From Mesostigma viride (taxonomy: Eukaryota; Streptophyta; Mesostigmatophyceae; Mesostigmatales; Mesostigmataceae), in contig RPFO01000175.1 in NCBI GenBank assembly GCA_009746045.1, positions 2,080,898 through 2,144,897 on the forward strand: a stretch of DNA of 64,000 bases, read 5' to 3'. Made by a program: the position numbers and the translations under genes. The notes under the pieces are model-generated. The model did no database searches. It was not told the origin of the DNA and saw only the letters and a list, made by a program, of their open reading frames with translations. Positions 4,411-61,837 of the stretch are shown here, piece after piece (the stretch's first letter is position 1; every line of letters starts with the position of its first letter).

Positions 4411-5539
4411 TTAATTCAAGCGTTAGTGCAAACTCTGAAATGAGAACAGCTATGATAAAACGGCCAAGAATCCCTGTTGCAGGTACCGTCAAGAAAAAAA
4501 CTTAAGTTGGTCCTAAGCCGTGCCACCGGGAATGCAACCTCGTTAGATATGCCAGGAACCAAATAGCGAAATGCCCCACTTGTCGGAAGATATAACCAGT
4601 ACATTGCTGCTCAGGATGATGATGAATTTCACGGGCCATCCACATCCAGGAATGCATCAATGTCCCTGAACTCGAACAAGGCCTGGGCACAAACAGAAAA
4701 AGATGCAATTGCCAAGGTCAAGGTCAACAGCAGTAAAAAGATTAGAGGTGGCACAGCAGGCCAGTCATAGTCTTTCAAACTCCATCCATCCCCTTCACCC
4801 TACCTCCACGTCAATTCACTTGTGGAAAAAAAATGACAAGCCCACCCGTTCAGCAAGCTACTCACATAAATGGTGACATTTGTCGTCAACAGTAAACACA
4901 GCTAGGTACCTCACTCGGAGGGGCGGGGGGCATACCCCCCCATTTTCCTACTTGATCCCACTCAAGTTTTTGCCGTCCAGGCCGTCCGTCACCAGCCAAA
5001 GTGAAAAATGGCTGAGCGTACACCTTTGCTACAGTGCGTCCGTCGGGGCGAAACGGAGTGCAAGTTGGACGTGTGACACGTAGCATTCATACGCTTGGGA
5101 GGTAGTCGGCACAGTCAGGACTTGTATCTGACGCCATCAACATCACTCCTAGTTTCGCCACGTGTCCTATAAATTATGACCGTATAATTACCGTAGTACG
5201 TATATGCGCATTTGTACGTCCAGGAGTACCTCACTCCGGGATGTAAGCCAAAGCGCCGGACCAATACCTAGTCTCCGGTTCTATTTTCCTCGCCCCGTCC
5301 TCAAAAAGCCAACTTGAGCGCACACCGTTCTAATAATTCTGGCGCCCGGGCAATTTTTTGAGCTCGCTTCACATCTGTCAAAAGCCCCGTCGGACCAAAC
5401 TGGAGTGGGAAGTTTTGCTGTGACGTCCCCCCTCCTTTACTCGCCTACATGATGCTCCTGCCACCTTTCACCGTCTTGCATGAATGAAGACCGCAAAGTC
5501 CTCAAAGCTATGAAAGCTCCAAGCTCCGAGCTCCGAGCT
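4411..5539. other. Non-coding stretch, no feature recognised
   Basis: Short ORFs only, none with a recognisable motif or codon-like bias. The missing last exon of the aspartyl aminopeptidase gene could lie here or in 6451-7305, but I found no segment that matches that protein's C-terminus. Confidence 0.4.
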
Positions 5540-6286
5540 CCAAGGTCCAAGGTCCAAGGTCCAAGGTCCAAGGTCCAAGGTCCAAGGTCCAAGGTCCAAG
5601 GTCCAAGGTCCAAGGTCCAAGGTCCAAGGTCCAAGGTCCAAGGTCCAAGGTCCAAGGTCCAAGGTCCAAGGTCCAAGGTCCAAGGTCCAAGGTCCAAGGT
5701 CCAAGGTCCAAGGTCCAAGGTCCAAGGTCCAAGGTCCAAGGTCCAAGGTCCAAGGTCCAAGGTCCAAGGTCCAAGGTCCATGGTCCAAGGTCCAAGGTCC
5801 AAGGTCCAAGGTCCAAGGTCCAAGGTCCAAGGTCCAAGGTCCAAGGTCCAAGGTCCAAGGTCCAAGGTCCAAGGTCCAAGGTCCAAGGTCCAAGGTCCAA
5901 GGTCCAAGGTCCAAGGTCCAAGGTCCAAGGTCCAAGGTCCAAGGTCCAAGGTCCAAGGTCCAAGGTCCAAGGTCCAAGGTCCAAGGTCCAAGGTCCAAGG
6001 TCCAAGGTCCAAGGTCCAAGGTCCAAGGTCCAAGGTCCAAGGTCCAAGGTCCAAGGTCCAAGGTCCAAGGTCCAAGGTCCAAGGTCCAAGGTCCAAGGTC
6101 CAAGGTCCAAGGTCCAAGGTCCAAGGTCCAAGGTCCAAGGTCCAAGGTCCAAGGTCCAAGGTCCAAGGTCCAAGGTCCAAGGTCCAAGGTCCAAGGTCCA
6201 AGGTCCAAGGTCCAAGGTCCAAGGTCCAAGGTCCAAGGTCCAAGGTCCAAGGTCCAAGGTCCAAGGTCCAAGGTCCAAGGTCCAAG
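5540..6286. repeat. Satellite of the 7-bp unit CCAAGGT, about 107 copies
   Basis: Near-perfect head-to-tail CCAAGGT from 5540 to 6286, with a single obvious variant unit (CCATGGT) around 5779. Because seven is not a multiple of three, three units give a seven-residue peptide repeat and several frames stay open. Those ORFs are artefacts. Confidence 0.97.
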
Positions 6287-10300: not shown

Positions 10301-13300
10301 CTAGCTACATTCACTGGAAGATACTGAGCAAGCGCCACGTTGCAATGACCGTGTGAATCAGTTTTTGCCTCGCAAACCTAAACCTTCCACCTTGTTATTA
10401 CGGGGATGCGAATTCACGCAATGTCACAATGCAATATCGCAAAGTGTATGTTTACCGGTGCAGTGTATCCCATTTTCCTCATGCTTGCAAACGTAACAAT
10501 GATGCACATTGCACACCCACGACAAAACAACGACACAAGCATCGGCCATGCATATCTTATTTATTAATTTGATTTTTCATCTATTATTAATGGTTAATTT
10601 GATTTTCTATCCGGCTGGGTATCTGCGGTTCACATGATAACAGCCTCCAGGGTGACATATTAATAGGCCTCCAGGCTCCAGGGCCTCCAGACTACCTTCT
10701 CGGGGTAGTTTGGGTGCACCGCGTGCGCCATGTCGGCCGACACCAGGAAGCTGCGCGCGACCGCCATCTGGAAGTCTTGCTGGACATCAAGCATAGCGAT
10801 GGGAACGCGCCAACAAGCGATGGGAGCGCGCCAACAAGCGATGGGAACGCGCCAACAAGCGATGGGAGCGCGCCAACAAGCGATGGGAACGCGCCAACAA
10901 GCGATGGGAACGCGCCAACAAGCGATGGGAACGCGCCAACAAGCGATGGGAGCGCGCCAACAAGCGATGGGAACGCGCCAACAAGCGATGGGAACGCGCC
11001 AACAAGCGATGGGAACGCGCCAACAAGCGATGGGAGCGCGCCAACAAGCGATGGGAACGCGCCAACAAGCGATGGGAACGCGCCAACAAGCGATGGGAAC
11101 GCGCCAACAAGCGATGGGAACGCGCCAACAAGCGATGGGAACGCGCCAACAAGCGATGGGAACGCGCCAACAAGCGATGGGAGCGCGCCAACAAGCGATG
11201 GGAACGCGCCAACAAGCGATGGGAACGCGCCAACAAGCGATGGGAACGCGCCAACAAGCGATGGGAGCGCGCCAACAAGCGATGGGAACGCGCCAACAAG
11301 CGATGGGAACGCGCCAACAAGCGATGGGAACGCGCCAACAAGCGATGGGAGCGCGCCAACAAGCGATGGGAACGCGCCAACAAGCGATGGGAGCGCGCCA
11401 ACAAGCGATGGGAACGCGCCAACAAGCGATGGGAACGCGCCAACAAGCGATGGGAACGCGCCAACAAGCGATGGGAGCGCGCCAACAAGCGATGGGAACG
11501 CGCCAACAAGCGATGGGAGCGCGCCAACAAGCGATGGGAGCGCGCCAACAAGCGATGGGAACGCGCCAACAAGCGATGGGAACGCGCCAACAAGCGATGG
11601 GAACGCGCCAACAAGCGATGGGAGCGCGCCAACAAGCGATGGGAACGCGCCAACAAGCGATGGGAACGCGCCAACAAGCGATGGGAACGCGCCAACAAGC
11701 GATGGGAACGCGCCAACAAGCGATGGGAACGCGCCAACAAGCGATGGGAGCGCGCCAACAAGCGATGGGAACGCGCCAACAAGCGATGGGAACGCGCCAA
11801 CAAGCGATGGGAGCGCGCCAACAAGCGATGGGAGCGCGCCAACAAGCGATGGGAACGCGCCAACAAGCGATGGGAACGCGCCAACAAGCGATGGGAGCGC
11901 GCCAACAAGCGATGGGAACGCGCCAACAAGCGATGGGAACGCGCCAACAAGCGATGGGAACGCGCCAACAAGCGATGGGAACGCGCCAACAAGCGATGGG
12001 AACGCGCCAACAAGCGATGGGAACGCGCCAACAAGCGATGGGAACGCGCCAACAAGCGATGGGAACGCGCCAACAAGCGATGGGAACGCGCCAACAAGCG
12101 ATGGGAACGCGCCAACAAGCGATGGGAACGCGCCAACAAGAGCACGCCCACGAGGCGGTGATGGCAACCATGACCATGATGATGTCAGTGATGATGGCAT
12201 GAAACACCCATGGCAGGGTCTCATGCACAAACTGATTGTGAGTTGTAACTTTTCCGCGGAGACCAATGGAATCTATCCTTTGGACAAAGTTATCTATGCG
12301 GGCGCACTGAACAAGAGAATGCGTGCGGGCGGACACCATGCGTGTCATTATTTGATACGCTCTGCAGTCTAGTAGTGACAACACCGCCAAGGACTTGGGC
12401 TAGTCCTTGGCACATGGAAAGCAACATTCTACGAGCATCACAGCCAGTGGCAACCGCGCTCCACCCAGGCTTGACTGCTGGTGCATCAGTCTTTAATTCT
12501 GCATCATTTTTCTCTTAGACTTGAGCGCGTGAAATGGCCTCCATGCTGCACGTCATCATGCATAATCGCTGGCAGCAGCACGCCAGCCAATGCGAAATGT
12601 GGGCTAAACTACTGGGAATACTACAGGAAGTGCCAGGGAGTAGTAAAACATCGTGAGCGCACGCACTGCGCCGTCATTACTATTTCATTCATTAGTTCAA
12701 GACTGCATGCCTTTTGCTGAATGCGCTGGTAACTATAAATACTAAAGAAGCGCTGCAGTACCTGCTCCATGTGCCATTTGCCAAAAGCCTTGGTCACTAA
12801 AAATAATTTACAGTAACTGCCCCGTGTGGCCCTTGCCAAACGCCTCCATCACTATAAAAACTACAGTTGCTACAATACGTGCTCTCCGTGCCCCTTGCCA
12901 AACGCCTCGGTCACTACAAACACTTTACAGTACCTGCACTCCGTGCCCCTTGCCAAACGCCTCGGTCACGCGCGCGATGAGGTCCTTGAGCAGAGGCGCG
13001 GCCGCCCCGTGCGCCGAATTGCTCCCACATTCCTCGTGGTCGAACAGGGAGACGACGCGCACCTGGTGTATCACATGGTAAATATGTATAGTTTTGAATT
13101 TTTAGTATATATATACTGCTACTGTTGTGAGGAACTACTGTTACTGCATTACCATGAAATCTAACAATAGTGAGGCTAGAGCCGCACTTCTTGTGGTCAA
13201 ACAGGGGGATGACGCGAACCTGCGGCACTCCTCGGAGCATGGGTACAGGTCGAGCATAGTCGGGTGTGGGAACAGTAGTCCTCACAATCTCGGCCAACAG

Positions 13301-25086: not shown

Positions 25087-28000
25087 ATGCCGTCCGACGC
25101 AGCGAAGAAGAAACAGCAAGCGAAAAAGGCAGCAGCAGCATCCAAGCGTGGCGGTGCTGCGGCAGATAAAAATGCTGCGGCGACAAATAAGGATGACTAC
25201 GCTCCCGCACAGGGGACCATCCACCGATTGAGGTTCCCACCGTCTTTAACTGCCAGGCAACGAGCCATAATTCACGAAATCGCCGAGGAGCATGGCCTCT
25301 CGCATGCTAGCACTGGAGAGGATGCTGCGCGACACATTCGCGTTTGGACCGAGGATGACACTGGCGAAGAACTCGTAGTAACCGGGGAGGACGACGACGC
25401 AATATGCTCGGCTATGCGCAAATTGCTGGGCGAGGACGTGAGCGCGCGTTTCCGCGAGGCGGCGACCGCGCCCGGCGGGCGAAGCCAGGCCGGCGGGCCG
25501 GCGTCCAACGCCGCCGCGGCGGAGAAAATGTACAAGACCCTCGGCGGCGCCGCGTCGAAGCCCCTCACGCTGGAGGAGTTCATATCCCGCACCCTGCCCT
25601 TGATTGACATGGAGAAGGACGCCGAGATGGCGGCCTCCCAGGAGACCACCTCCCAGCTGTCCCCCGAGGCGGCCCAGAAGCGCGGCCGCGCGCTCCTCAA
25701 CCTCAAGTGCACCGACCTTCAAACCGGTCTCCTCGGGAAGACCCTGCTCACGCTCGAGCCCAACCGCGGGGACCTGCTGCCCGCGCACAAGCTGACCCCG
25801 CACGATGTCGTCAGTGTGCGCCCCAACCGGTCCCTGGACACCTCCCCGGCGGCAGTCCTCGCCCAGGGCGTCGTCTACCGGCTCAAGGAGTCCCTGGTGG
25901 TCGTCGCCGTCGACGACATCCCCGAATCGGGCCTCGACGTGCCCCTCCGGCTCGACAAGCTAGCCAACGACGTCACGTACAAGCGGCTCAAAGCCACCGT
26001 GGCGGCGCTCAGCAAGGGGGTCATCTCAGGCCCCGCGGCCAACCTGGTCCCCATCCTGTTCCACCAGCGCCCCCCCGCCGCGACGCTCCCGTCGTCGGCC
26101 GCGTCCTGCAAGGGTCATGATGCTGCGGCTCATAAGGGCCATGATGCGGCCTCTTGTTCGGGCCATGATGGGGGTTCTGTGAAGGGCAATGACGTTGGTG
26201 CCGGCGCGGGGCATGAACACCAGAGGAGCACCGAGGGGCATGACCACCGCGCCAGTTCCATATCAGTATCCTCCGGTGCTGGCCACGATCACCACCGGGG
26301 CAGCTCCACATCCTCCGGCTCGATGACATCATCGCCGAGCGACTTTGGGGGCGCGTTCAACCGTGACCTGGACGCCTCGCAGAAGAGGGCGGTGGCGCGT
26401 GCGCTAGCATCGCGCGACGTGGCGCTGCTGCACGGGCCACCCGGCACGGGCAAGACGACGGCAGTGGTGGAGCTCATCCTGCAGGAGGTCAAGCGGGGCA
26501 CGCGCGTGCTGGCGTGCGCCGCGTCCAACATCGCGGTGAGGGGGGTGGTCACTGTAACTATCATTATTAGTATTTATTATTTTTCTTTGTTATCATAAGT
26601 GAGGCGTGCTCGTGCTGGCGTGTGCAGTGCACAACATCGCGGTCAGGGGGGCACGGATATAATATTACGGTTGCGGACAATACTTACTTGGTCATTGATC
26701 CCAAGTTATTTAAATTGTCACTCGTCCCAAGTTATTTAAATGGTCGCTGATCCCAAGTTTTTGGATAGGACCAAGGTAGGGAGGCCATCGCAGGGTGCAT
26801 TCACAGAGTGGGGTGCATTGGTGCGATATCATTAGGGACAGTTGTGTTGCCTAGATAGTCCGTTCTCTACCAAATGCCCCAGCATTGTCCCTGGGTATTC
26901 GAAGCCTTCGACTTCGGCCATGGCCTTAGCCAGCAGTCTCAGGCAAATGTGTTAGGCGATTGCCATATTAGGCAATATTTCTAGGCAAGTGTCTGAGGCA
27001 ATGGACTAAGGTAACGGTGTTAGACAGCAATCTTAGGCTATTGTCGGAGGCAATGGACTCTCAAGGGTCGTGAGGGCGGCATGCTTTATGGTTGCAGGAT
27101 CATGGGGGGCTGTCGGCTTATCCTCCTGCAGCCTGTATGTGGGAATGATACTTCTGCCATTCACCTCCCGCGACTCAGGCTGTTTCCACGTCGCTGTCAT
27201 AGCAGGTTGGCTTGTGCCAGCATGCTCAGGAGGCAATCTCTTTGTAGGGTCCTTTGTAATCGGGCCAGGGCATTCTTGGAGGGTCATGTTGACCCCTGCA
27301 ACGCTTGGGTTTTCTATTAGCATCCTACTCATTGTGTATATAGGGTTGAAGGCTCCTTTACTCTGTATTGGCACCCACCTGACGCAGTCACGTGCTTATT
27401 AACTATTCAATTAATCCTACTAGTGCCCTCACTCTTTTGTGTAGTTTGCCTCAGCCACCTGTGGTGCTTCTGCCTTTGTAGCTTCAGCTTCTAAAGCGTT
27501 CGCTTCTGCTGCTGCGTGTTTCCCCCTCCCCCCCCCTCCCCCCTTGCCTTCCGCCCTTTCCCTTCCCCCCCTTGCCTTCCGCCCTTTCCCTTCCCCTCCT
27601 TTCCTTCCCCCCTTTCCCTTCCCCCCCTTTCCCCCCCTTTTCCTTTCCAACATCCCCCCCATCCCCCCCTTCCCCCCCCCCCTTTGCCCCCCCCCCCCTT
27701 TCGCCAGGTGGACAACATGGTGGAGCGGCTGGCCGCGCACAAGTGCAACGCCGTGCGCCTGGGCCACCCCGCGCGCCTGCTCCCCTCAGTGCTCGACCGC
27801 TCGCTGGACGCGCTCGTGCTCCGTTCCGACAACACGGCACTCGCGCGCGACGTCCGTCGCGAGATCAAGGCGCTGAACGAGTCGCTCTTCAAGACGCGCG
27901 ACCGCGCGCTCAAGTCCCAGATGCGCCGCGAGCTCAAGGCCCTCACCAAGGAGGAGGTGCAGCGGGAAAGGCAGGCCGTGGTGGACGTAATCAAGGGCGC

Positions 28001-29042
28001 GGACGTCGTGTTGACGACGCTCACGGGGTCCCTGGGGTCCCAGCTCGCTGACGAGACGTTCGACCTCGTCGTCATTGACGAGGCCGCCCAGGCCCTGGAG
28101 GCCGCGTGCTGGCAGGCGCTGCTGAAGGGGCGGCGGTGCGTACTGGCGGGGGACCACTTGCAGCTGCCGCCTACGTGCCAGAGCGACGAGGCGGCCAAGA
28201 AGGGGTTGGGGGTCACGTTGTTCGAGCGGGTCGCGGCGGGGCCGTACGGGCGTGACGTCACCAGCATGCTCACCGTGCAATACCGTATGCACGAGGACAT
28301 CATGAACTGGTCGTCGGGGGAGCTGTACGGAGGGCTGATTTCAGCCCACGGGAGTGTCGCGCGTCACCGGCTGAGCGACTTGGACTATATCGGCCCCTCG
28401 GGTCACAAACACCGGAAGAGTGTCGCGATCGCGCCGGGGGGGGGGAAGGAGGATGGCCAGGGGGGTGATGACCATGGGGGTGGAGACTCCAATGTGCTCG
28501 ACGAGGTGCTCGTGTTGATTGACACTGCGGGGTGTGATGATCAGGAGACCAAGGAGGCGGACGGCGACAGCACATATAATGCCGAGGAGGCGCGGGTTGC
28601 GATGGCCCATGTTGGCCGACTGCTGGCCGCGGGGGTGGCCCCCGGTCACATCGGCGTGATCACCCCCTACAATGCGCAGGTGCAGCTGCTACGGGAGCTG
28701 CGGCAGGGGCTCCCGAAGATACAACATTCTTCGGGCGGCAAGGGGGGCGGCGCGGCTGCTGCGGGTAGCACCGGGGACGCGGTGGAGATCAGCACGGTGG
28801 ACGGTTTCCAGGGGCGCGAGAAGGAGGCTATCGTGATCTCGATGGTCCGCTCCAATGATAAAGGGGAGGTGGGGTTCCTTGCGGACGCCAGAAGGATGAA
28901 CGTGGCCGTGACGCGCGCGCGCAGGCACTGCGCGGTCGTGTGTGACACGGAAACTGTCTCCAAGGACCCCTTCCTCAAGCGCATGGTCGCCTATTTCGAG
29001 GAGCATGGGCTGTACCGGGGCGCCATGGAGTATGGCAGCTAG
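25087..29042 (+). CDS. IGHMBP2: Superfamily 1 helicase, IGHMBP2/SMUBP-2 type, two exons
   Basis: Upf1-like RNA/DNA helicase family. Exon 1 is 25087-26535; exon 2 is 27708-29042 (TAG). The intron (26536-27707, GT...AG) is phase 0. Joining gives ASNIA/VDNMVERL, a family-typical sequence, and about 927 residues (human IGHMBP2 has 993). After a Lys/Ala-rich start comes an R3H domain (about 45-90, R59-xxx-H63). In human IGHMBP2 the R3H follows the helicase. Next are the helicase's N-terminal barrel region, a Gly-His-Asp-rich insert (about 342-405), Walker A GPPGTGKTT (450-458), motif II DEAAQ (607-611), motif III GDHLQLPPT, motif IV QYRMH, motif V GFQGRE (849-854) and motif VI VAVTRAR (882-888). 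All catalytic motifs are intact. I see no C-terminal AN1 finger. The family is certain; the exact biological role is inferred. Confidence 0.95.
26536..27707 (+). other. IGHMBP2: Helicase intron with a duplicated exon end and a long C-rich tract
   Basis: Donor GCG/GTGAGG and acceptor TTTCGCCAG/GTGGAC. At 26604-26652 a diverged copy of the last 40 or so exon bases plus donor occurs (CGTGCTGGCGTGTGCAGTGC...AACATCGCG/GTCAGG). From about 27516 to the acceptor the sequence is almost entirely pyrimidine, with CCTTGCCTTCCGCCCTTTCC-type repeats and long C runs. The middle has AGGCAA/TTAGGCAAT-type short repeats and no ORF worth calling. Confidence 0.85.
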
Positions 29043-30090: not shown

Positions 30091-30905
30091 ACCACCAACT
30101 TGACCGATCGAAACCTCCATCCGCTCACTCCTTCGAGAGGCCCTCGAGCAGCACGTGGCCCCCCTCGCTGCAGATGTGGCAGCCATGGGCGGCACGTTGA
30201 CTGCCGAGCTCCCCCTTCTCTCCACTGCCGCCACCGCCACCTCTACCCTCCTCGCCTCCACCTCCAAAGCCACCACCACGGCCACCACCGACGCCATCAC
30301 CGCCCAACTCCTCAACATCGACCAGCGCCTCAAGGACAACGTGCCATCGCCATCGAGTGCCTGCAAAACACCGAAGGCCGGCACCGCCCAGGCGTTGAAG
30401 GACATTGCAGCCCGGCTAGCCCCTGCTGGCCCCGCCGGCGATGCCCCTCCCACCCAGACCTGGGCCGCCATGCTGCTGAATCACACCACCTCCACCACCT
30501 CCGCCATCGCTGCACAGCTCAAGCAGCAGACGCTCGACCTGGAGCCGCGAGGAGGCCGAGCTCGACAAGCGCAGCCGCAATGTCATCGTCAAGCACTTGG
30601 ACCTGCTTGAAGGTGAGACCCCCGAGTCCCTTGCCAAAGCGTTTGAGAACACCGTATTTAACTGTCCCCATGGCTCTCAGCGGTAAGGTCAAGCCGGGGG
30701 TGAGATCCGCCGCCTTCCCCGCTCGCGGGTTAAGGCTGGACCGCCCCCGCTTCTCCTCACCTTTGACACCAAGGCGGATAAGCTGGAGTTGTCGCGTACT
30801 CGTGCCAAACTCCCTGCACTGACAGTAGCCCACGACCTCGTTGGCCCTCATGAGGTATGGCTGCATGGGCCGGTGATCGATGGGCCACATGCTAGCCTTA
30901 CCCCA
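30091..30905 (+). pseudogene. LINE ORF1-like fragment
   Basis: Several frames carry pieces of one protein: a helical region with LREALEQHVAPLAADVAAMG, low-complexity Ser/Thr/Ala, then EEAELDKRSRNVIVKHLDLL and, after frame breaks, LLTFDTKADKLELSRTRAK. The same order occurs at 48.1-48.6 plus 50.3-50.6 kb. The RSRNVIVKHL and dK...R-type segments recall the RNA-binding region of non-LTR ORF1 proteins. At about 30905 it abuts the truncated LTR retrotransposon. Confidence 0.5.
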
Positions 30906-32309
30906 CTAGTGCTGCCCACTAGACCAATCCGTGTATAGCACAAATGGCTGGGCATAGTCGGGCTGACGGAGTATCGGCGCTGAGGTGAGCTCTGCCTTGA
31001 TGGTCTCAATGGCGCGTTGCTGCGCCGGACCCCATGCCCAGACTGCACCTTTCTTCAACAGCTCCGTCAGTGGCTTAACCTTGGTGCTGAAGTTGGGGAT
31101 ATAACCTCGGTAATACCCCGCCAGCCCCAGGTAAGCCCGCACACCCGCCACATCCGTGGGCGTTGCCGCGTTGACGATCGCTTCCACCTTGGCCGCTTGT
31201 GGAGTTCTGCCGCCAGGAATGATCTGGTGTCCGAGGAAGTCGAGGCTCCGCTGCGCAAACCGACACTTCTCGGGATGCAGCTTCAGGTTGGCTCGCGCCA
31301 GTGCCATGCGCACCTGCTCAAGGTGCTGGAGGTGTTGCTCAAATGTCTCACTGAAGATGATCACATCATCAATGTAACACGCAGCGAATGGCATGCCATT
31401 CAACACTTGATCCATGGCACGCTGAAAGATGGCACTCGCATTCCTATGCCCGAAAGGCATCCTGACCCACTCATAGAGTCGGTGGCCCCCCCAGAACGCG
31501 AGCTTGCGTTGGTCACCCTCCGCCACTTGGATTTGGTGAAACCCACTGCGGAGGTCTAGGGATGAGATGAACTGCACGCGTGGCGATATCCGGTCAAGCA
31601 CATCGTCCACTCGCGGCATGGGGTACCTGTCCATCGGGGTGTGTGCGTTGAGTTGCCGCAGGTCCGTCGCCATGCGCATCCCAGTCCATTCACCTGTCAC
31701 CGCATCCTTCTTGGGCGCCACGACGGTCGCGGCCGCATAGTTGGATGTGGATGACCGAATGATGCCAGCAGCCTCCAGCTCCTCGCATTGTTGCTGCACA
31801 AACTCCAGCTCAGCTTGACTCAGCCGGTGTTGTCGGCGAAACAGTGGCTGATCGGTGTCCAGCGGGACCCGCATCTGCCCACCATTGTAGCATCCCAGCT
31901 CTTGACTGCTGAATGCAAACGCGTTGCGCGCACCTTCCAGCCACTTGAGCAGCCTCGCACGTTGCTCAGCTGTGAGGTGCTCACAGACGCTCCATTGATG
32001 GTTTGCTGCCGGGTCGCTTGCGCTCGAGACATTGTGCACAGCCACCGTGGGACCGCGCACGGCCGCCGACTGAAACAGCATGTATGCCGCCGCTCCCGGC
32101 GTAATGCCTCGCTCTCCCACCTGCCGTTGTGCCTTCGCCACGAGGAACTGAAAGGCCGGAGCCGCCGAGAACACACAGCTGGTGAGGAGCGCAGTCATGA
32201 GGATGACTGACCATACCTGGCGCCAGGTGTAGGACCACCCTTGGCCCCTGCCGCCTGCACGCTCCGCCTTAGGCACACCAGCCGGCGCAGCACCGGTGGG
32301 TGGAGAAGT
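30906..32309 (-). pseudogene. Ty3/gypsy reverse transcriptase, truncated in RNase H
   Basis: Open from 32309 to a TAG at 30906-30908, with no ATG near the start; counting from the GTG at 32276 gives 456 residues. It contains RT motifs in order: ATVVAPKKDAVTGEW, MATDLRQLNAHTPMDRYPMP, FISSLDLRSGFHQI, ASAIFQRAMDQVL, the catalytic YIDD (301-304) and FLGHQIIPGG. A connection region and the opening of RNase H (FVLYTDWSSG) follow, where it stops. The reading frame differs from the upstream methyltransferase frame; the two overlap over 32195-32309. Expression would need a frameshift, unless one of the frames is damaged. Without RNase H and integrase this copy is not autonomous. Confidence 0.85.
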
Positions 32310-33655
32310 TCACTCTGCGCCTGTGCAGTCGCAGCATGGACGGGAAGTGCAACCCGCTGCACCCTCCGCACACCTTGCGCTGCTAGCAAGGTGTACCCCA
32401 CCTGCCAGGCTGACATGGCCTGGCCAATGAGCGACCATCGCTCCACCTCCAGGAGCCCTGGGGCGGCGGATGCACCTTCGGCAAAGCCCATGCTTAGTTC
32501 ACGAAACCCCGCGGGTGGCTGAACCAAGAGACCTGTGGCACGCTCCCACACAAGCCCCTTGCCCCGGTCACGATAAGCCTGGGACCCTTGGTAACTGACA
32601 AGGGTGGGCAGTGCTCGCATGGGGGCGCCTGCCTTGTTGACGGGCGCGTAGGGTGCCTGATCATCGTGCTCCACATACTGCGCCGTGAGTTGACTGGGCA
32701 ACACGACATCGACCGGTGGCAGCTCAATGTGGCTAGCGACATGCTGCATCACCGCCTGCGTAGAACCTTGGCCAGCGATGTTGGTCCAGAACGCGCGCAG
32801 CCGATGGGTATTCCCTCCCAGCCCGGCATTGTCCGACACCACGGGTTCCCCCAAAATACCCACAATGGTGCCCCAATCCTCCCGAACAGTGGGGCTGGGA
32901 CTGTCCACCGCCACTACGTTTTCAAATAAGTAGGCGGGTGGCACCTGCTGCAGCTGCTGGAGCTCGCCCACAATGCGCAGCATGTCCCAAAATAGGCCGC
33001 TCCTGCTGTCGGCAAGGCCCCGGCCATGCCCAGCCTGGCTCATGCCTTGGCACTCCCAGCCAGCAATGACCAACCCTACCTCGCCATGTTGTGAGATGAG
33101 GCGGCGCAGCTGCTGCTGCCCAAGGAAGCGCACGTCATGAGTGCCCTCGCCGAAGACATCAGCCCAGGCGGATGGAGGAAATTGTGCTGGGTATGCTTGC
33201 GACAAGATAGCGCAGTGGTGCAAATATGCCGCCCTGGCTGTGAGCGATGCCTCCACCGCAATGAGCTTGCTGCATACCCCCCCGCTGCTCAGGAAACCGG
33301 CTATGCCGCCACCCATACCTGCGAACAGCTCCAGCACGACGGTGGCACGCCCGAAGTCCGGGATGCGTTCCAGCACCTCTGCGCTAAAGCCGGGGTACTG
33401 CGTGATGGCACCCGGCTGGCGCCGCTTCCCCCCAGCACCCTTGGGCAGTGCCTGACATGCCGCCATCACCCGTGCGCGCACATCGCGCAGGCGTGGCAGG
33501 GGCGCAACCTGGGCAAGCCAACTTTGCCTCTGCGCATCCCGCGCTGGCAACGCCGCAGGCAGCACACACCGGTGCCTATCGCGCGCGCGCTTGTCGCTAG
33601 CCGCTTGCGCCATGTGCACCGCTTGCGCGTCCGGCCACACGCCCCCCCCCAGTTC
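32195..33655 (-). CDS. Cytosine-5 DNA methyltransferase domain inside a retrotransposon (DNMT3-like)
   Basis: Would transfer a methyl group from S-adenosylmethionine to cytosine C5. Residues are counted from a GTG at 33640; there is no suitable ATG and the frame continues from Gag-Pro across one UGA (33656-33658). Motifs in linear order: I LELFAGMGGG (103-112), the cofactor acidic residue in AVEAS (128-132), IV GWECQGMS (194-201, catalytic Cys197; Glu replaces the usual Pro), VI FENV (239-242), VIII HRLRAFWTN (279-287), a target-recognition region with MRALPTLVSYQG, and IX-X RELSMGF...LIGQAMSAWQVGYTL (380-418). The set looks complete and is not circularly permuted. FENVVA and HRLRAFW resemble DNMT3 rather than DNMT1. 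It lies between protease and RT of the same element. Alternative: a bacterial/viral-type C5 enzyme. Confidence 0.85.
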   Translation of the reverse strand, partial: ELGGGVWPDAQAVHMAQAASDKRARDRHRCVLPAALPARDAQRQSWLAQVAPLPRLRDVRARVMAACQALPKGAGGKRRQPGAITQYPGFSAEVLERIPDFGRATVVLELFAGMGGGIAGFLSSGGVCSKLIAVEASLTARAAYLHHCAILSQAYPAQFPPSAWADVFGEGTHDVRFLGQQQLRRLISQHGEVGLVIAGWECQGMSQAGHGRGLADSRSGLFWDMLRIVGELQQLQQVPPAYLFENVVAVDSPSPTVREDWGTIVGILGEPVVSDNAGLGGNTHRLRAFWTNIAGQGSTQAVMQHVASHIELPPVDVVLPSQLTAQYVEHDDQAPYAPVNKAGAPMRALPTLVSYQGSQAYRDRGKGLVWERATGLLVQPPAGFRELSMGFAEGASAAPGLLEVERWSLIGQAMSAWQVGYTLLAAQGVRRVQRVALPVHAATAQAQSELLHPPVLRRLVCLRRSVQAAGAKGGPTPGARYGQSSS

Positions 33656-36469
33656 TCAGCCGCATCCCCCTGGCTCCACCTCTATGCTGGCGGGCGACAC
33701 CACTGCAGCCACACACGCGTCTAGCGACACCACCCCCTGCGGGTTAGGCTCCGGGTCGCTGCTGCACTGAATGGGAAGAAGCGCCTTTTGCTTCCCCTCC
33801 CCCTGCCAATCACGGCGGTAGGTCGCAACCTCCAGCCAAGGGTCAATTATGAGCCCGAGGCGATACATGACGTCCATCCCGATAAGGGCTGCATACCCAC
33901 ACCTGTCGACCACCAAGGCCGGCACAGCCACGCAGGCCATCCGCTTTGGGTCCGTGGGGTTGAGGATGACGTTGATCAGCATGGAAGTCATTGCATCGGG
34001 TCGCGCCGCTGGCCCTTTCCATCCCTCCACGAGAACGGTGCTGTCTATGAGCCCGCCGTTCTCACGGGTCGCACCACACATCTTGGCCAGCTCCATGGTG
34101 ATCACGAGCGGCCCGGCTCCGCCATCCAGCTTGGTGACGGACTTTGCGCTGGGGCACACCATAGGGCCCCAACAAGTGCCGTCCTCGCTGATTGCCTGGA
34201 AAGCGATAGCCGGGGACCCATCAGGGTGCTTTGCCACCGTGACTGTCCTCGGCACCCGTGACATCCGCTCCTCGCGGGTTGCTTCCCGGGGCATGGTTGG
34301 TGCTGGGACGTCTGCCGGGGTTGCCGGCATAACTGGCATGGTGACCCGCCGCGCAGTTTCCGCCACCGGCAATGTGCGTGCGTCTAGGCTGTCGGCGCAC
34401 CGCTGCAGTGCCGCAGCTGCTTGGTGCACCAACGTGATGCCCCGCTGCCCGCAGCCATCAATCACTTGCCTGGCAGAAAACAAGGGAGCATCAATCACTC
34501 CATCCACTGGCAAGAATGGTGGCAGCTTGCGCCGCTGCTCGGCGTCGGCGGGGTTCGGGTGCTCCAGCAGCGATGACTCACCGCCGGTTGAACCTGCCGG
34601 GAACGATGCAGGAAGCTGGGGTGGCCCCCCCTCACCATTTCCCGTGGTTGGTAGGAACGACGGCAATGCCCGTGCCTGCTTGCCTCGGGTAGCTGCCTGG
34701 ACCTCGACGGCATGGATAGGAGCCCAGAACAAGTCGGGTTGCTCCACCAGCGTATACGCGTCATACGCTTCCATCCCCGCCGCCTGCCCACTCGGTTGGC
34801 TGGGTGACGCCGGCGCTGCCGATACCTCAGCTGCCTGCTCTGTTGGCGTGCTGTCGGCCGCCACCATGGCCGCTGCATGTGCTTGCACGGTCTTGGTGAC
34901 CACTGGGTACTTGCACCCTGCCGGAGCATGGGCGGGCGTTCCAGCCGCGTGCTCCTTCTTGCACTGGGCTGGGCAGGCCCGCTTCACGTGATCTGGCTTC
35001 CCGCAGATCCAACATGCCTTGTGCGGGTCAGCCGTCGCCTGGCCGGTGCTGCTGGAGGCCGTGTTGTCGCCCCCCGCGCTGGCTGGCTTGTCCGCCTGCG
35101 ACCCAAACTGCCGGCTGCTTGGTCCACCCCTTCCACCGCTGGACCCTCCACCGCCTGATTGCGCGCCACCCACCCTGTTACCCTTGTGCGCTTGGGCGAC
35201 TTCTTGGCGTACCAGCTCCACTAGGTCCGGGAGACCCCGTGCCTGTCGCCGGTTGAATGCATGCACTTCCGTGCACAGCTGGGCCAGGTCCCAGTGACAA
35301 CCAAATCTAGGTTGTGGGATCATGGCAGCTTTTGGACCCAACGCCTTGAGCCACTTCTCACACGCCTCCGCCTCCGTCCATGCCGGGACCTCATCCCGCA
35401 AGACCTCCAGGCGGTCCATCGTGGCGTCAGGCGACTCCTTGTCCCCCACCTTGAAATCATGCCACTCCGCCTCCGCCTTGGTGGAGGAGTGGGCGTACTT
35501 GGCGCGCAGAAGTTCCCACAGCTCCTCGGCAGGGTCGACGTCAAATACCACGTGTTGGTAGTCCGGCAAGCCTTGTTGGTCGCGCCTGTACCACACATCG
35601 GATCTTCCCGTCTTCAGCGCCACCTCATGGTAGCCTGTGACCCACCGCTGCACCAGCTTTTGCGTGTTGCCCGAGAAAAACATTGGGATGTTGTCCATCT
35701 CAAAGGACTTCGGCAGCTGGTTATGCGTGACGATATACTGCTGGTGCAGCCAAGTCTTATATTTCCAATAGGCTTGGTTGATGTCAACAAGCCCACCGTC
35801 AGCAGTATACCTGTCCTTGAGCTCCACCTGCGCTTGCACCGGCATTCCCACCTTGGATCCCTCAATCGGCGACCCATTGTAGCCCACCGGCATGCTTGGC
35901 GTCCTTGGTAGAGTAGCCACAAACCTCGGCTCCAGCCCATAGCCTCGTTCCACCGTGTATGGACTGCCTCGCTGCAATCCCGGAATGATGCCTGGCCGCA
36001 CCCACGGTGTTTGTAGCCGTGGCGTCGCTGGGTTTGTTGGTGCCGGCGCATGCGGCACGCCAAAAGAAAACCCAGTTTGTGCACTAGGCATCCCAGGCAC
36101 ATGCTGCCGCGACGCCTGCATCTGTGGCGCTTGCGCCTGTGGCTGCACGGATGGTGCCTGCGACATTAAAGGCACCTGCGACTGCAACACCTGCGCTTGG
36201 GGCTGCCAAACTTGCGCCTGCGGCTGCAACACTTGCGGCTGTGGTAGGTGCGGCGCTGGTGTCAGCGTTGCTTGCGCGGTCCACGTCGCGTGCAGACTTG
36301 CAATCTGCGCCGCCAACTGCGCCGTCTGCTGCTGCTGCAACTGCATAGCCAGCTGTTGCTGCTGCATCTGTTGTTGGGATTGTGCTACATGTTGCAAAAT
36401 CTGCTGCAACACATCCGCACCCACCCCCTGGCTGGCACTTGGCCCCGGCGCTAGCCCGGTGCCTGCCAA
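33656..36469 (-). CDS. Retrotransposon Gag-protease polyprotein
   Basis: A 937-residue minus-strand ORF starting at ATG 36469, ending in TGA. It has a Gln-rich N-terminus (QQILQHVAQSQQQMQ), a Pro/Gln repeat region and a capsid-like segment (KTWLHQQYIVTHNQLPKSF through EELWELLRAKY and MDRLEVLRDEV). A CCHC zinc knuckle follows at C486-x2-C489-x4-H494-x4-C499. The C-terminal 200 residues resemble a retropepsin, with KLDGGAG (Asp782) at the place of the usual D-S/T-G and ALIGMDVMYRLGL as the second signature. Gly instead of Ser/Thr after the catalytic Asp is unusual and could mean an inactive or divergent protease. A shorter overlapping frame upstream (36792-36451) probably holds the true Gag start. 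Confidence 0.85.
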   Translation of the reverse strand: MAGTGLAPGPSASQGVGADVLQQILQHVAQSQQQMQQQQLAMQLQQQQTAQLAAQIASLHATWTAQATLTPAPHLPQPQVLQPQAQVWQPQAQVLQSQVPLMSQAPSVQPQAQAPQMQASRQHVPGMPSAQTGFSFGVPHAPAPTNPATPRLQTPWVRPGIIPGLQRGSPYTVERGYGLEPRFVATLPRTPSMPVGYNGSPIEGSKVGMPVQAQVELKDRYTADGGLVDINQAYWKYKTWLHQQYIVTHNQLPKSFEMDNIPMFFSGNTQKLVQRWVTGYHEVALKTGRSDVWYRRDQQGLPDYQHVVFDVDPAEELWELLRAKYAHSSTKAEAEWHDFKVGDKESPDATMDRLEVLRDEVPAWTEAEACEKWLKALGPKAAMIPQPRFGCHWDLAQLCTEVHAFNRRQARGLPDLVELVRQEVAQAHKGNRVGGAQSGGGGSSGGRGGPSSRQFGSQADKPASAGGDNTASSSTGQATADPHKACWICGKPDHVKRACPAQCKKEHAAGTPAHAPAGCKYPVVTKTVQAHAAAMVAADSTPTEQAAEVSAAPASPSQPSGQAAGMEAYDAYTLVEQPDLFWAPIHAVEVQAATRGKQARALPSFLPTTGNGEGGPPQLPASFPAGSTGGESSLLEHPNPADAEQRRKLPPFLPVDGVIDAPLFSARQVIDGCGQRGITLVHQAAAALQRCADSLDARTLPVAETARRVTMPVMPATPADVPAPTMPREATREERMSRVPRTVTVAKHPDGSPAIAFQAISEDGTCWGPMVCPSAKSVTKLDGGAGPLVITMELAKMCGATRENGGLIDSTVLVEGWKGPAARPDAMTSMLINVILNPTDPKRMACVAVPALVVDRCGYAALIGMDVMYRLGLIIDPWLEVATYRRDWQGEGKQKALLPIQCSSDPEPNPQGVVSLDACVAAVVSPASIEVEPGGCG

Positions 36470-36792
36470 CCCGCTGAGCCGTATCTGCGATGATGGTGTG
36501 ATGGGAAGTACTGTTCCATCTTGAGGACCTGCCGCGCTGCCACCCAGCCCTCCGTTGACGACCGATGTGTCACCACCACCACCACCAACGCCACCACTCC
36601 GATCGGCGACCCCCCCCCATTGCCCATCCCGGAACCCGAGGCTGCTGGTGGGACGAGTGGCCCATTGCCGTTGTCGCCAGTTGGCAAGGATGCCTGCGTG
36701 CCTGCAGCATCACCCTGCCGCGGTGCGCCATCCACCACCGTGCCTTGGTTGGGGTTGGCGCCCCCTTGATGTTGACCATCTTGGTCTGCCAT
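36451..36792 (-). CDS. Probable Gag N-terminal segment, different frame
   Basis: An ATG at 36792 opens a Gly/Pro/Asn-rich frame (ADQDGQHQGGANPNQG...) that overlaps the main Gag ORF by about 20 bases and ends in TAG/TGA-type stop at 36451. It may be the true amino end, with a frameshift or sequence damage between the frames. Evidence is position and openness only. Confidence 0.4.
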   Translation of the reverse strand: MADQDGQHQGGANPNQGTVVDGAPRQGDAAGTQASLPTGDNGNGPLVPPAASGSGMGNGGGSPIGVVALVVVVVTHRSSTEGWVAARQVLKMEQYFPSHHHRRYGSAGWQAPG

Positions 36793-36819
36793 CAAGCTTC
36801 GTGCTTGTGCTCTCGTGAG

Positions 36820-36838
36820 CACCGTTTCTGCAACCAAT
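36820..36838 (-). other. Candidate primer-binding site
   Basis: On the minus strand TTGGTTGCAGAAACGGTG stands just upstream of the Gag ATG. It begins with TGG after one base, as sites complementary to a tRNA 3' CCA end do. The tRNA cannot be named from the sequence alone. Confidence 0.3.
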
Positions 36839-36839
36839 C

Positions 36840-38189
36840 AGTGGGCTACAGAGTGAGCAGACGTAGTGCAAAATCAGTATGCACCACAGGGGCCACCACT
36901 TGGCCCCTTCAACTTGCTGGCACCACACCAGATGCAAGGGCAAGGAGAAAGAAAACAATTGCCTGAAAGCTGAAAACCAATGCTGCTTCAGGACCTTCTT
37001 GCAAGCTGCCTGCCTTGACAGCCTTGCACAGCCAGCTTTACCTCTATTCCTAGTATTCAGGAAGAGGCCTCAGCCTTGACCAAGCTTACCTACCAACTCT
37101 CAGTCTAGCTCTGTGTGGATAAGACGAGAAGCCAGTGCCAACTGCACTTCTCAAAAAGGTGAGACCTGAGAGTGAGGTATGACTAGGTTAGGCTTCACAC
37201 TGTGTTCTTTGTTGCAAATGAAATAACGTTTTTATTACCAATACTCTACCTAACTTGGCAGCTCTGTTTCAGCAATGGCTGGGCTCGATGAAAGAAAGGA
37301 GGGCTGGCCACACTTGCCACGCACCACCATGACCAAGACAGAGTTCAAGGATCCACACAGAGCTACATCCAACGCCCTGGTGGAAACACACACTTATCCC
37401 AATGAATGCCTCACACTTACGCAATATCTTGCGTCAGCCTTACCACGTAGCCACGCTCAGTATCTGATCCTGACGACAACCGCTTTGTCGTCCATACTGC
37501 TTCAATTACACCAAAGCTACTCCGTGGCACTCGGCTTTGGTCAGCACCAAGACCTAAAAGTACACAAAATCCTAAGTCGTTGTCTGCAACGACTCCCTGT
37601 TCCGCATATGAAACATATCATCTAGCACTTTCTCTTTAGACGACAAAATCAACTAGACAACCTGGGTAGGCCAGAAATCCCAGACGACAAAATGTCCTTG
37701 TCGCAGATCACTCCAGTGTCGACTTGCCGACCCCTGAGCTTGCCAAACAACTATATCACCAACCAAGCATGTACGACAACTAGCTGGCCCTGACGAGAAA
37801 AGCTGCCTCGTCGCATTCACAAAAGCGGCTTGCCAGCCTGCCGAATATCAATGCCAATATTGCACGACATTATCTACCTGCAGCGGACAGTTCTCGAGAT
37901 CAATAACGCGCCAGCTTGCGTGCACGTGCATGTTCAGCCTGCACGATAAAGCATAATTGCCAGGCTGGCAGCCTAGCTTGGTCCGTGTTGTAGTCCAGCA
38001 GCCAGTGCGTGCTGCTTGCCAGCGTTGGCACTGACCTCCTGGTGACGCATGTCAGTACCGCTGTCAACTCCCAGTGCTGCGCGTCGCACTACGGCGCATG
38101 CGTTGCTCCCGTAAGGCCCAAATGCCAAAGGCGTAACAACTCGCACACGCGCAATGCCTATAGCTGCCTCGCCTCGTCCCCCGGGCCGG
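36840..38189. other. Possible 5' LTR and leader, plus unassigned sequence
   Basis: No coding region is supported. Recurrent CGACAA/GACGAGAA motifs occur at about 37125, 37470, 37630, 37680 and 37770-37810. An AATAAAAACG-type motif is present on the minus strand near 37230. If the retrotransposon has an LTR, it should begin here, but no second LTR copy exists in the window to define it. Confidence 0.35.
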
Positions 38190-38885
38190 CCGCGTGGCGG
38201 CCCCGCGTAAAGCCGATACTCGTGCGAATCGGAACGGCGCGCGACAGAGTTCCTCAAGCGTCGCAAGCGGCTTGAGGGGACCTACACGCTGGACGACGAC
38301 TTTACCCTGGCCCAGCAATAACAGCGACGGGAGCTATGACCGACCTGCCTCCAGCTCCGGCAGGCCGCGGCGGGGAAGAAGCCGGTATACTGAAAGGGGG
38401 CGGTCATCTACGTTGACCACAATGAGCCCTGCATGGCAGGCGACCCCTGCCCCAGCGACCCCAGCACCTAGCCTAGGGGCATAGCGCCCCAGCCTAGGGG
38501 AATATATAACAGTAGTGTAGAATATTAGTAAGGCTTAGCCGACGTGGATTGACGCCCATGTGCATGTGTGCCTATGATGGGACCCACACCACATGACGCA
38601 TTAGCTTTAGAATAGTTGATCATGCCTTGCCCATGCAGAGAGGTACTCTCTGCTGGGATGTCATGCCCTAGCTATTGCCTAGCGGCACAATCATCTTCCA
38701 CCCCATGTCCGCACCTTAGCTGCTGGAATACATCATGGAGGTGCAGGTGCACCTTGTGCACCCAGACTCCCAGAGTAGGTGGCTGCTTACCTCCCCCGCA
38801 CCTGCAGGACGTTGTAGCCCAGAATGTATAAAAAAACCATAGGCCCCCTTCTCAGGGCCATGTGTTACGTATAAGTAAGTAAGTA
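38190..38885 (+). mobile_element. ORF1-only LINE derivative: ORF1 tail plus 3' region
   Basis: About 38230-38450 encodes, across a broken frame, the ORF1 C-terminal pattern (LKRRK..LEGTYTLDDDFTLAQQ, then KGAVIYVDHNEPC). It passes directly into a non-coding 3' region with GGGAATATATAACAGTAGTG and GCCCAGAATGTAT, ending in a GTAAGTAAGTAAGTA-type tail at about 38872-38890. No reverse transcriptase lies between ORF1 and the 3' end. The arrangement matches the element at 50.3-51.2 kb. Confidence 0.6.
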
Positions 38886-60520: not shown

Positions 60521-60622
60521 ACTAAGTGAGTGAGTGAGTGAGTGAGTGAGTGAGTGAGTGAGTGAGTGAGTGAGTGAGTGAGTGAGTGAGTGAGTGAGTG
60601 AGTGAGTGAGTGAGTGAGTGAG

Positions 60623-60690
<68 letters not shown>

Positions 60691-61830
60691 TGGTGGGTGG
60701 GTGGGTGGGTGGGTGGGTGGGTGGGTGGGTGGGTGGGTGGGTGGGTGGGTGGGTGGGTGGGTGGGTGGGTGGGTGGGTGGGTGGGTGGGTGGGTGGGTGG
60801 GTGGGTGGGTGGGTGGGTGGGTGGGTGGGTGGGTGGGTGGGTGGGTGGGTGGGTGGGTGGGTGGGTGGGTGGGTGGGTGGGTGGGTGGGTGGGTGGGTGG
60901 GTGGGTGGGTGGGTGGGTGGGTGGGTGGGTGGGTGGGTGGGTGGGTGGGTGGGTGGGTGGGTGGGTGGGTGGGTGGGTGGTGGGGGTGGGTGGGTGGGTG
61001 GTGGGGGTGGGGGGTGGGAGGGAGGGAGGGAGGGAGGGAGGGGGGAGGGAGGGAGGGAGGGAGGGAGGGAGGGAGGGAGGGAGGGAGGGAGGGAGGGAGG
61101 GAGGGAGGGAGGGAGGGAGGGAGGGAGGGAGGAGGGAGGGAGGGAGGGAGGGAGGGAGGGAGGGAGGGAGGGAGGGAGGGAGGGAGGAGGGAGGGAGGGA
61201 GGGAGGGAGGGAGGAGGGAGGGAGGGAGGGAGGGAGGGAGGGAGGGAGGGAGGGAGGGAGGGAGGGAGGGAGGGAGGGAGGAGGGAGGAGGGAGGGAGGG
61301 AGGGAGGGAGGAGGGAGGGAGGGAGGGAGGGAGGGAGGGAGGGAGGGAGGGAGGAGGGAGGGAGGGAGGGAGGGAGGGAGGGAGGGAGGGAGGGAGGGAG
61401 GGAGGGAGGGAGGGAGGGAGGGAGGGAGGGAGGAGGGAGGGAGGGAGGGAGGGAGGGAGGGAGGAGGGAGGGAGGGAGGAGGGAGGGAGGGAGGGAGAGG
61501 GAGGGAGGGAGGGAGGGAGGGAGGGAGGGAGGGAGGGAGGGAGGGAGGGAGGGAGGGAGGGAGGGAGGGAGGGAGGGAGGGAGGAGGGAGGGAGGAGGGA
61601 GGGAGGGAGGGAGGGAGGGAGGGAGGGAGGGAGGAGGAGGGAGGGAGGGAGGGAGGGAGGGAGGGAGGGAGGGAGGAGGGAGGGAGGGAGGGAGGGAGGG
61701 AGGGGAGGGAGGGAGGGAGGGAGGGAGGAGAGGGAGGGAGGGAGGGAGGGAGGGAGGGAGGGAGGGAGGGAGGGAGGGAGGGAGGGAGGGAGGAGGGAGG
61801 GAGGGAGGGAGGGAGGGAGGGAGGAAGGGA
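60521..61830. repeat. Chained microsatellites (GTGA)n-(GTGC)n-(GTGG)n-(GAGG)n, 1.3 kb
   Basis: Four tetranucleotide arrays follow each other: GTGA to about 60623, GTGC to about 60690, GGGT to about 61010, then GGGA to 61830 with occasional GGA units. Neighbouring arrays differ by one base per unit. The very long Gly/Arg/Val and Pro/Ser/Thr ORFs here are artefacts. Confidence 0.97.
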
Positions 61831-61837
61831 GTGGATC

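Follow-up and report, generated by a model that had tools for sequence, protein, structure and literature searches.

The 64,000-nucleotide stretch of Mesostigma viride DNA analysed here (the window) was found to contain a damaged copy of a Ty3/gypsy-type retrotransposon which carries, on profile similarity, a DNMT3-like C5-cytosine methyltransferase (MTase). It is proposed, with about even confidence, that this is a recent, defective copy of an element whose Pol opens with the MTase and ends with a PHD finger, that the element would insert as circular cDNA and that the MTase would act on that cDNA or circle. The element is of a known kind, as a retrotransposon-borne DNMT3 in a charophyte, KnitGypsy-Dnmt3 of Klebsormidium nitens, was published in 2018 (de Mendoza et al., 2018; PMC5890265), and the Mesostigma element is a variant. 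Retrotransposon DNMT3-like enzymes are now found in a second charophyte, with a high copy number, very young copies and metagenomic relatives, and with a change in the catalytic motif which is kept across the lineage and is testable by a simple assay. Circle insertion by a DDE integrase would account, in concrete and checkable terms, for the unusual DIRS-like repeats that have been described in KnitGypsy-Dnmt3, and the element raises testable questions on the marking and insertion of its own DNA.

The element copy in the window

The positions of the copy and its parts are listed in Table 1. The limits of the MTase open reading frame (ORF) given in a first-pass annotation, which was made from the sequence alone, proved to be exact. 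An internal deletion has removed most of RNaseH together with the integrase and the PHD finger. The MTase had also been described as lying in frame between the protease and the reverse transcriptase (RT); this holds for its position, and for the frame of MTase and RT in other copies, but not for the frame in the window copy, where gag-PR and MTase form two ORFs with a TGA stop between them, and RT is read in a different frame. The window copy shares this MTase/RT frame change with no fewer than three further copies whose 486-aa MTase frame is identical; the internal deletion is absent from those three. The window copy differs from copy L010 by 0.03% over 6335 aligned bases, and on account of this small difference it is considered to be recent.

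The protease-like region noted previously was upheld by eye and by position, with relatives matching at the same place (P0005 above the Pfam cut-off, P0008 below it), but no protease was named by Pfam in the gag-PR of this family. A first-look repeat search within the window gave no LTR pair, and the repeat structure is visible only by way of the other copies. No tRNA was found in a search of the window.

Table 1. Features of the element copy, in positions of the window.
Feature	Position	Strand	Remarks
Element copy, Ty3/gypsy-type	30790-38246	-	Damaged
Target-site duplication, element 3' side	30786-30789		GAGT on + strand
Target-site duplication, element 5' side	38247-38250		GAGT on + strand
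Repeat unit A	37120-38246	-	Starts TGTCGCG; second part of the presumed LTR (B-A); from repeat comparison with other copies
Repeat unit B	30790-30920	-	Ends CGCGACA; first part of the presumed LTR (B-A)
gag-PR ORF	33656-36709	-	1017 aa up to TGA
Zinc knuckle in gag-PR ORF	34970-35017	-	Below Pfam cut-off
Protease-like stretch in gag-PR ORF	near 34121-34126	-	By eye
C5-cytosine MTase ORF	32195-33655	-	486 aa; PF00145 core 32909-33337
Motif I	33331-33317	-	ELFAG
Motif IV	33050-33055	-	Glu201-Cys202 (WECQ), Glu replacing canonical Pro; Cys202 at 33052-33050
Motif VI	32912-32923	-	ENVV
Motif VIII	32795-32809	-	THRLR
Motif IX/X-like stretches	32611; 32428	-	LPTLVSY; IGQAM
RT ORF with truncated RNaseH	30906-32309	-	RVT_1 31221-31715; RNaseH start 30918-31034
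Internal-deletion join	30919-30920	-	About 2.2 kb of other copies absent

Architecture of the element in full copies

Copies other than that in the window consist of gag-PR followed by a single Pol frame which opens with the MTase. The Pol of family 1, as seen in L010, is one frame of 1642 aa with the Pfam domain order MTase-RT-RNaseH-H2C2-rve integrase-PHD finger, and the MTase and RT share one such 1642-aa frame in L009 to L014. Family 2 has a frame of 2074 aa in which the Pol order is the same (Pfam), and its DNA is about 67% alike to that of family 1 in the MTase and 73% in RT. The MTase protein of a third family (L028) is 64% identical to that of family 1. The order RT-RNaseH-integrase (H2C2, rve), present in two families, is as in Ty3/gypsy elements and bears out the class to which the element had been assigned. 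Neither Pol nor gag frames of the two families gave a PF00589 (Phage_integrase) match, and no sign of ADD or PWWP was found beside the element MTase.

Across a run of G, gag-PR overlaps Pol in the -1 frame in eight of 13 family-1 copies. The gag-PR frame stops before this run in three of the 13 (the window copy, L011 and L017), and in L016 and L027 the run is longer by one. Frameshifting or slippage at the G run is plausible, judging by these frames.

Identity of the methyltransferase domain and its catalytic motif

Residues 107-249 of the MTase ORF were matched by Pfam PF00145 (E 2.5e-11; score 44 bits, cut-off 22), and the stretches which we take to be motifs I, IV, VI, VIII and IX/X occur in canonical order in the window ORF. 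When PDB sequences were compared with a family profile built from eight related MTases, the best match was DNMT3A (3.3e-18), followed by DNMT3B (1.2e-16), 4onj (presumably a plant DRM; 8.7e-13), DRM2 (7e-10), bacterial enzymes (7e-7), DNMT2 (1.6e-5) and DNMT1 (0.58). By this profile similarity the domain is a real DNMT3-like C5-cytosine MTase, as the first-pass annotation had claimed. The catalytic domain of DNMT3A/B has motifs I, IV, VI, VIII and X-like in the same order; identity to DNMT3A is 24-30% over 173-210 aligned positions, with PC in DNMT3A and EC in the element.

The catalytic Cys expected in motif IV is indeed present (Cys202), but the residue before it is Glu and not Pro. This motif reads A-G-x-E-C in eight of eight related MTases. 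The Pro of the Pro-Cys motif was found to be absent in all 14 related MTases (Glu-Cys in 12, Ser-Cys in P0010 and P0014), all of which keep the Cys, and Pro-Cys is present in four of four outgroups and in DNMT3A. The motif VI Glu and the motif VIII His-Arg-x-Arg are kept in all 12 relatives which extend that far, at about 30% identity (excluding P0014, which ends earlier, and P0016, in which that part is missing).

In a tree which left out the partial P0014 and P0016, and in which a single partial DNMT3 was included, the element MTases were split from five Pro-Cys sequences with a support of 98. The support dropped to 91 when these two sequences were included, and a FastTree run with the partial sequences placed P0014 weakly (0.378) beside the outgroups. 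As the Pro of the catalytic motif has been lost clade-wide, the MTase may or may not be active.

Copy number and selection

The 440-Mb assembly containing the window was searched with the MTase protein, and at least 90 MTase stretches were identified, some of them pieces of one copy, the candidates scored being 88 of the 558 from a first look. The domain is therefore not confined to the copy in the window. By identity, 34 of the stretches fall at 83-100%, one at 66% and 55 at 59%, and 82 of the 90 are free of stops inside. Two matches named Mesvir1, which is taken to stand for Mesostigma viride, were returned by the first protein search (98% and 69% identity).

Selection was measured as Nei-Gojobori pN/pS between families; synonymous sites have reached or nearly reached saturation and corrected ratios are unreliable, so that the argument is the contrast with neighbouring linkers. 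Between families 1 and 2, pN/pS was 0.32 for the MTase, 0.17 for RT, 0.11 for RNaseH, 0.23 for the integrase and 0.27 for the PHD finger, against 0.49 for the flanking linker and 0.72 for the N-terminus. Families 1 and 3 gave 0.35 for the MTase, 0.12 for RT, 0.53 for the linker and 0.76 for the N-terminus, and families 2 and 3 gave 0.25 for the MTase and 0.15 for RT. The MTase is more conserved between families than the flanking linkers, but is less constrained than RT. Purifying selection on the MTase between families is supported by this contrast. Confinement of the MTase to a single copy and the absence of purifying selection, both named in the first-pass annotation as results that would count against the proposal, were not what was found.

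Repeats, termini and target-site duplications

The copies are laid out as A-coding-B or as A-coding-B-A-B, the longer form being seen in L010, L011, L013, L017 and partly in L009, and the shorter one in the other copies. The element starts with TGTCGCG (TGTCACG in family 2) and ends with CGCGACA. Such TG...CA ends, together with a short target duplication of fixed length, are as in Ty3/gypsy LTR elements. In both families B and A are separated at internal junctions by the two bases GC. The resulting CGCGACA-GC-TGTCGCG, of 16 bases, is fully palindromic in family 1, and its equivalent in family 2 is nearly so. As a purine run precedes B and the coding region follows A, an ordinary LTR would be B-A. 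The genomic ends fall inside this B-A repeat, at the palindrome, and do not consist of full LTRs at both sides, as those of a Ty3/gypsy LTR element would. The stretch after A, which is the would-be primer-binding place, differs between the families.

Target duplications of 4 bp were observed in all ten insertions with both ends read (eight copies of family 1, one of family 2 and a chimera). This count does not include six more loci of family 1 at which one end was absent or not read, or four more of family 2 which were not followed to their ends. Three A-B units were sampled afterwards, two with a 4-bp duplication and one without a matching one, which brings the overall count to 12 of 13 insertions. 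Such A-B units could also come from recombination between two A repeats.

In the chimera, on C133, a whole family-2 element of the form B-A-coding-B-A, with B-A as 1282-bp direct repeats, interrupts a second element at its A/B join, and the composite is flanked by a single 4-bp duplication (GGGG). The A/B joins of all five long-form copies read contain 4-9 bases left from the stretches beside the LTR edges, in three variants, and these remnants fit what end-joined LTRs would leave. In four copies (that of the window, L017, L018 and L025) the deletion reaches to the start of B, give or take a few bases. Genome-wide exact counts gave 84 A starts, 78 B starts and 21 B-GC-A junctions.

Relatives outside the genome

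Protein searches for relatives, in which 8000 candidates each were scored, returned metagenomic and other proteins with the MTase in one of two places in Pol. It follows gag-PR, as in Mesostigma, in P0005, P0008 and P0014. The second place is after RNaseH and before the integrase, for which both neighbours are visible in P0006 and P0007 (Pfam) and a single side in P0009 (integrase), P0010, P0011 and P0016 (RNaseH) and P0012 (RNaseH by eye); P0013 has no nameable neighbour beside the MTase. The relatives with the second arrangement and P0013 form one clade (support 99, or 93 with partial sequences), and given this one clade a single move of the MTase domain within Pol appears likely, the alternative being two captures of related enzymes. 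Where present, the RT/RNaseH, integrase and PHD finger of P0006, P0007 and P0009 are 41-50% identical to those of family 1.

Among eight relatives scanned with Pfam, PF00145 was below the cut-off in P0007 and P0010 and absent at E 0.01 in P0006, P0009, P0011 and P0016. As six of the eight miss the cut-off, surveys based on PF00145 will undercount them. No relative was confirmed in viral contigs (11 pattern matches) or in prokaryotic genome contigs (22), in scans which rely on conserved peptide patterns and by which distant relatives could be missed; a viral or prokaryotic source was rejected on the outcome of these scans.

Proposed insertion and role of the methyltransferase

Reverse transcription would yield a linear cDNA of the form B-A-coding-B-A, with B-A as the LTR, and from the structure of the genomic copies it is inferred that its ends may be joined into circles. 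The DDE integrase would then open the circle at the palindrome inside the LTR and insert it, so that one-LTR circles would give A-coding-B and two-LTR circles A-coding-B-A-B. For 28 family-1 B starts the upstream side was read: ten follow the purine run, four an internal deletion and ten an A end, and the four which fall outside the circle model comprise three with a shared, recurring upstream sequence and one other. Methylation by the MTase, made together with RT, would take place on newly formed cDNA or circles ahead of insertion, and the integrase would be steered to chromatin by the PHD finger.

The most likely role of the MTase would be to serve the DNA of the element itself at the stages of reverse transcription and insertion, with the PHD finger directing the integrase; a role on the element's own DNA has already been proposed for other retrotransposon DNMTs (PMC5890265, in part). 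A wider reading, offered only tentatively and thought rather less probable, is that of a widespread algal LTR lineage which inserts circles by way of the LTR palindrome and couples this to a new, Glu-Cys type of MTase acting on the circle and to a PHD finger choosing the chromatin.

Lasting self-methylation has left no clear CpG mark, though the copies are young: the observed/expected CpG ratio is 0.77 in the element and 0.81 in the rest of the window, with no CpG depletion. Over ten copies compared with L010, the transitions add up to 12 at CpG (6802 bases) and 17 at other C/G positions (22,537 bases), L027 (23 of 768 and 56 of 2412) being excluded because 7% of its aligned bases differ. This excess at CpG is a hint of methylation by the element or by another party, and is too small to lean on.

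Alternative explanations

The loss of Pro in all 14 related sequences, with Ser in place of Glu in two, may mean that the domain is no longer an enzyme and has switched to a DNA- or chromatin-binding module which helps Pol or the integrase to hold DNA. DNMT3L is an example of such a module. If the domain did no more than bind, there would be no need for the Cys, the motif VI Glu and the motif VIII His-Arg-x-Arg to be kept, however, and this explanation is regarded as rather unlikely. An active MTase could instead have host chromatin or the insertion site as its target, and not the element's own cDNA. The same Pol ends in a PHD finger, so that a writer and what is probably a histone reader would be paired, and the host genome, for which bisulfite data are reported, is described as having CG methylation (PMC6947507, in part); the insertion flanks read, however, had no common motif visible by eye, and such a target is judged distinctly less probable than the binding module.

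The A-coding-B-A-B repeat order is as described for DIRS and for KnitGypsy-Dnmt3 (PMC5890265, in part), and would be explained if the element belonged to the DIRS type and owed its insertion to a tyrosine recombinase. The Pol has H2C2 and rve integrase domains with no Phage_integrase match, and 4-bp duplications accompany nearly all of the insertions. To our knowledge, target duplications are not expected of tyrosine recombinases. Insertion of the DIRS type was rejected on these grounds as very improbable. The broken state of the window copy would suit a chance landing of a host methyltransferase gene in one dead element, but at least three diverged families and the metagenomic relatives carry the MTase in Pol or beside gag-PR; with at least 90 MTase stretches in the genome besides, this idea was also rejected and is hardly credible. 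Insertion of circles by the element's own DDE integrase, with an MTase serving its own DNA, is the preferred reading.

Comparison with known systems

The precedent of retrotransposon-encoded cytosine MTases, cited in the first-pass annotation, is confirmed by KnitGypsy-Dnmt3. In the parts of that paper available (PMC5890265), this element resembles that of Mesostigma in having a Gypsy-type Pol with a DNMT3-related domain in a charophyte host, a DIRS-like repeat order combined with Gypsy domains, and purifying selection. Key residues of its MTase are reported there as conserved, and in yeast the enzyme, on its own, did not produce methylation, a result called inconclusive by its authors. The name Mesostigma occurs 0 times in that paper, and none of the matches in our protein searches (8000 candidates scored in each) was named as Klebsormidium, most being without an organism name. 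As the repeat layout is the same, when compared by description, common descent of the two elements is a live alternative to separate capture.

Among the matches listed from the open-licence PMC literature (including PMC6947507, PMC12344493, PMC2774666, PMC6338049 and PMC12477816, as far as their text was available), there was nothing on the Mesostigma element and no description of an EC-type motif IV, of circle insertion by an LTR integrase or of two MTase positions with a PHD finger. DIRS elements with an adenine methylase, and further transposons that bear an MTase, are also mobile elements with DNA methylase domains, but the available text describes N6-adenine or N4-cytosine enzymes, or another element class (PMC6338049, PMC12477816). 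SymbioDIRS-Dnmt3 and SymbioLINE-Dnmt of dinoflagellates likewise carry cytosine MTases on retrotransposons, but the former is a DIRS with a tyrosine recombinase and the latter a LINE, classes unrelated to that of the Mesostigma element (PMC5890265, in part). SymbioDIRS is described in the same text as having two domain orders, as do the relatives of the Mesostigma element.

Features of the element and its relatives

Inspection of the protease active-site stretch by eye gave LDGGAG in the family of the window's element, LDSGA in the second Mesostigma family and DTGA in P0005 and P0008, two related proteins. The join between methyltransferase and reverse transcriptase in the second family was found, also by eye, to be matched near letter-for-letter by a protein labelled Prorocentrum lima (P0015), a likeness which may reflect either contamination or transfer. 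Visual reading of P0006, a metagenomic Pol of 2846 aa, identified GDVEPNPGP, which we take to be a 2A-like motif, between the protease region and the reverse transcriptase, and a C-terminal stretch, DPFAGEG, resembling another methyltransferase, for which a Pfam scan returned no match.

A short element on contig C133 (L045), with its A and B repeats ~0.3 kb apart, has ends of the same kind as the methyltransferase-bearing element and is likely to be a non-autonomous partner.

Other cytosine methyltransferases and features of the window

A Pro-Cys type cytosine methyltransferase, different from that of the element, is alike across the three loci read (see table). Many further strong PF00145 matches with equal scores were found on small contigs of the genome, possibly representing viral or bacterial DNA. 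Long open frames on both strands coincide with the long tandem arrays listed in the table.

Positions of features in the window and of other methyltransferase loci
Feature	Position	Strand	Detail
Tandem array	5514-6286		AAGGTCC x110
Tandem array	10795-12140		21-mer x64
Helicase-like gene part	27495-29042	+	Pfam AAA_11/AAA_12
Protease active-site stretch	34121-34126		LDGGAG
Tandem array	60526-61831		GTGG and GGGA
Pro-Cys cytosine methyltransferase loci L001, L060, L062	C1468, C1, C1579		large contigs
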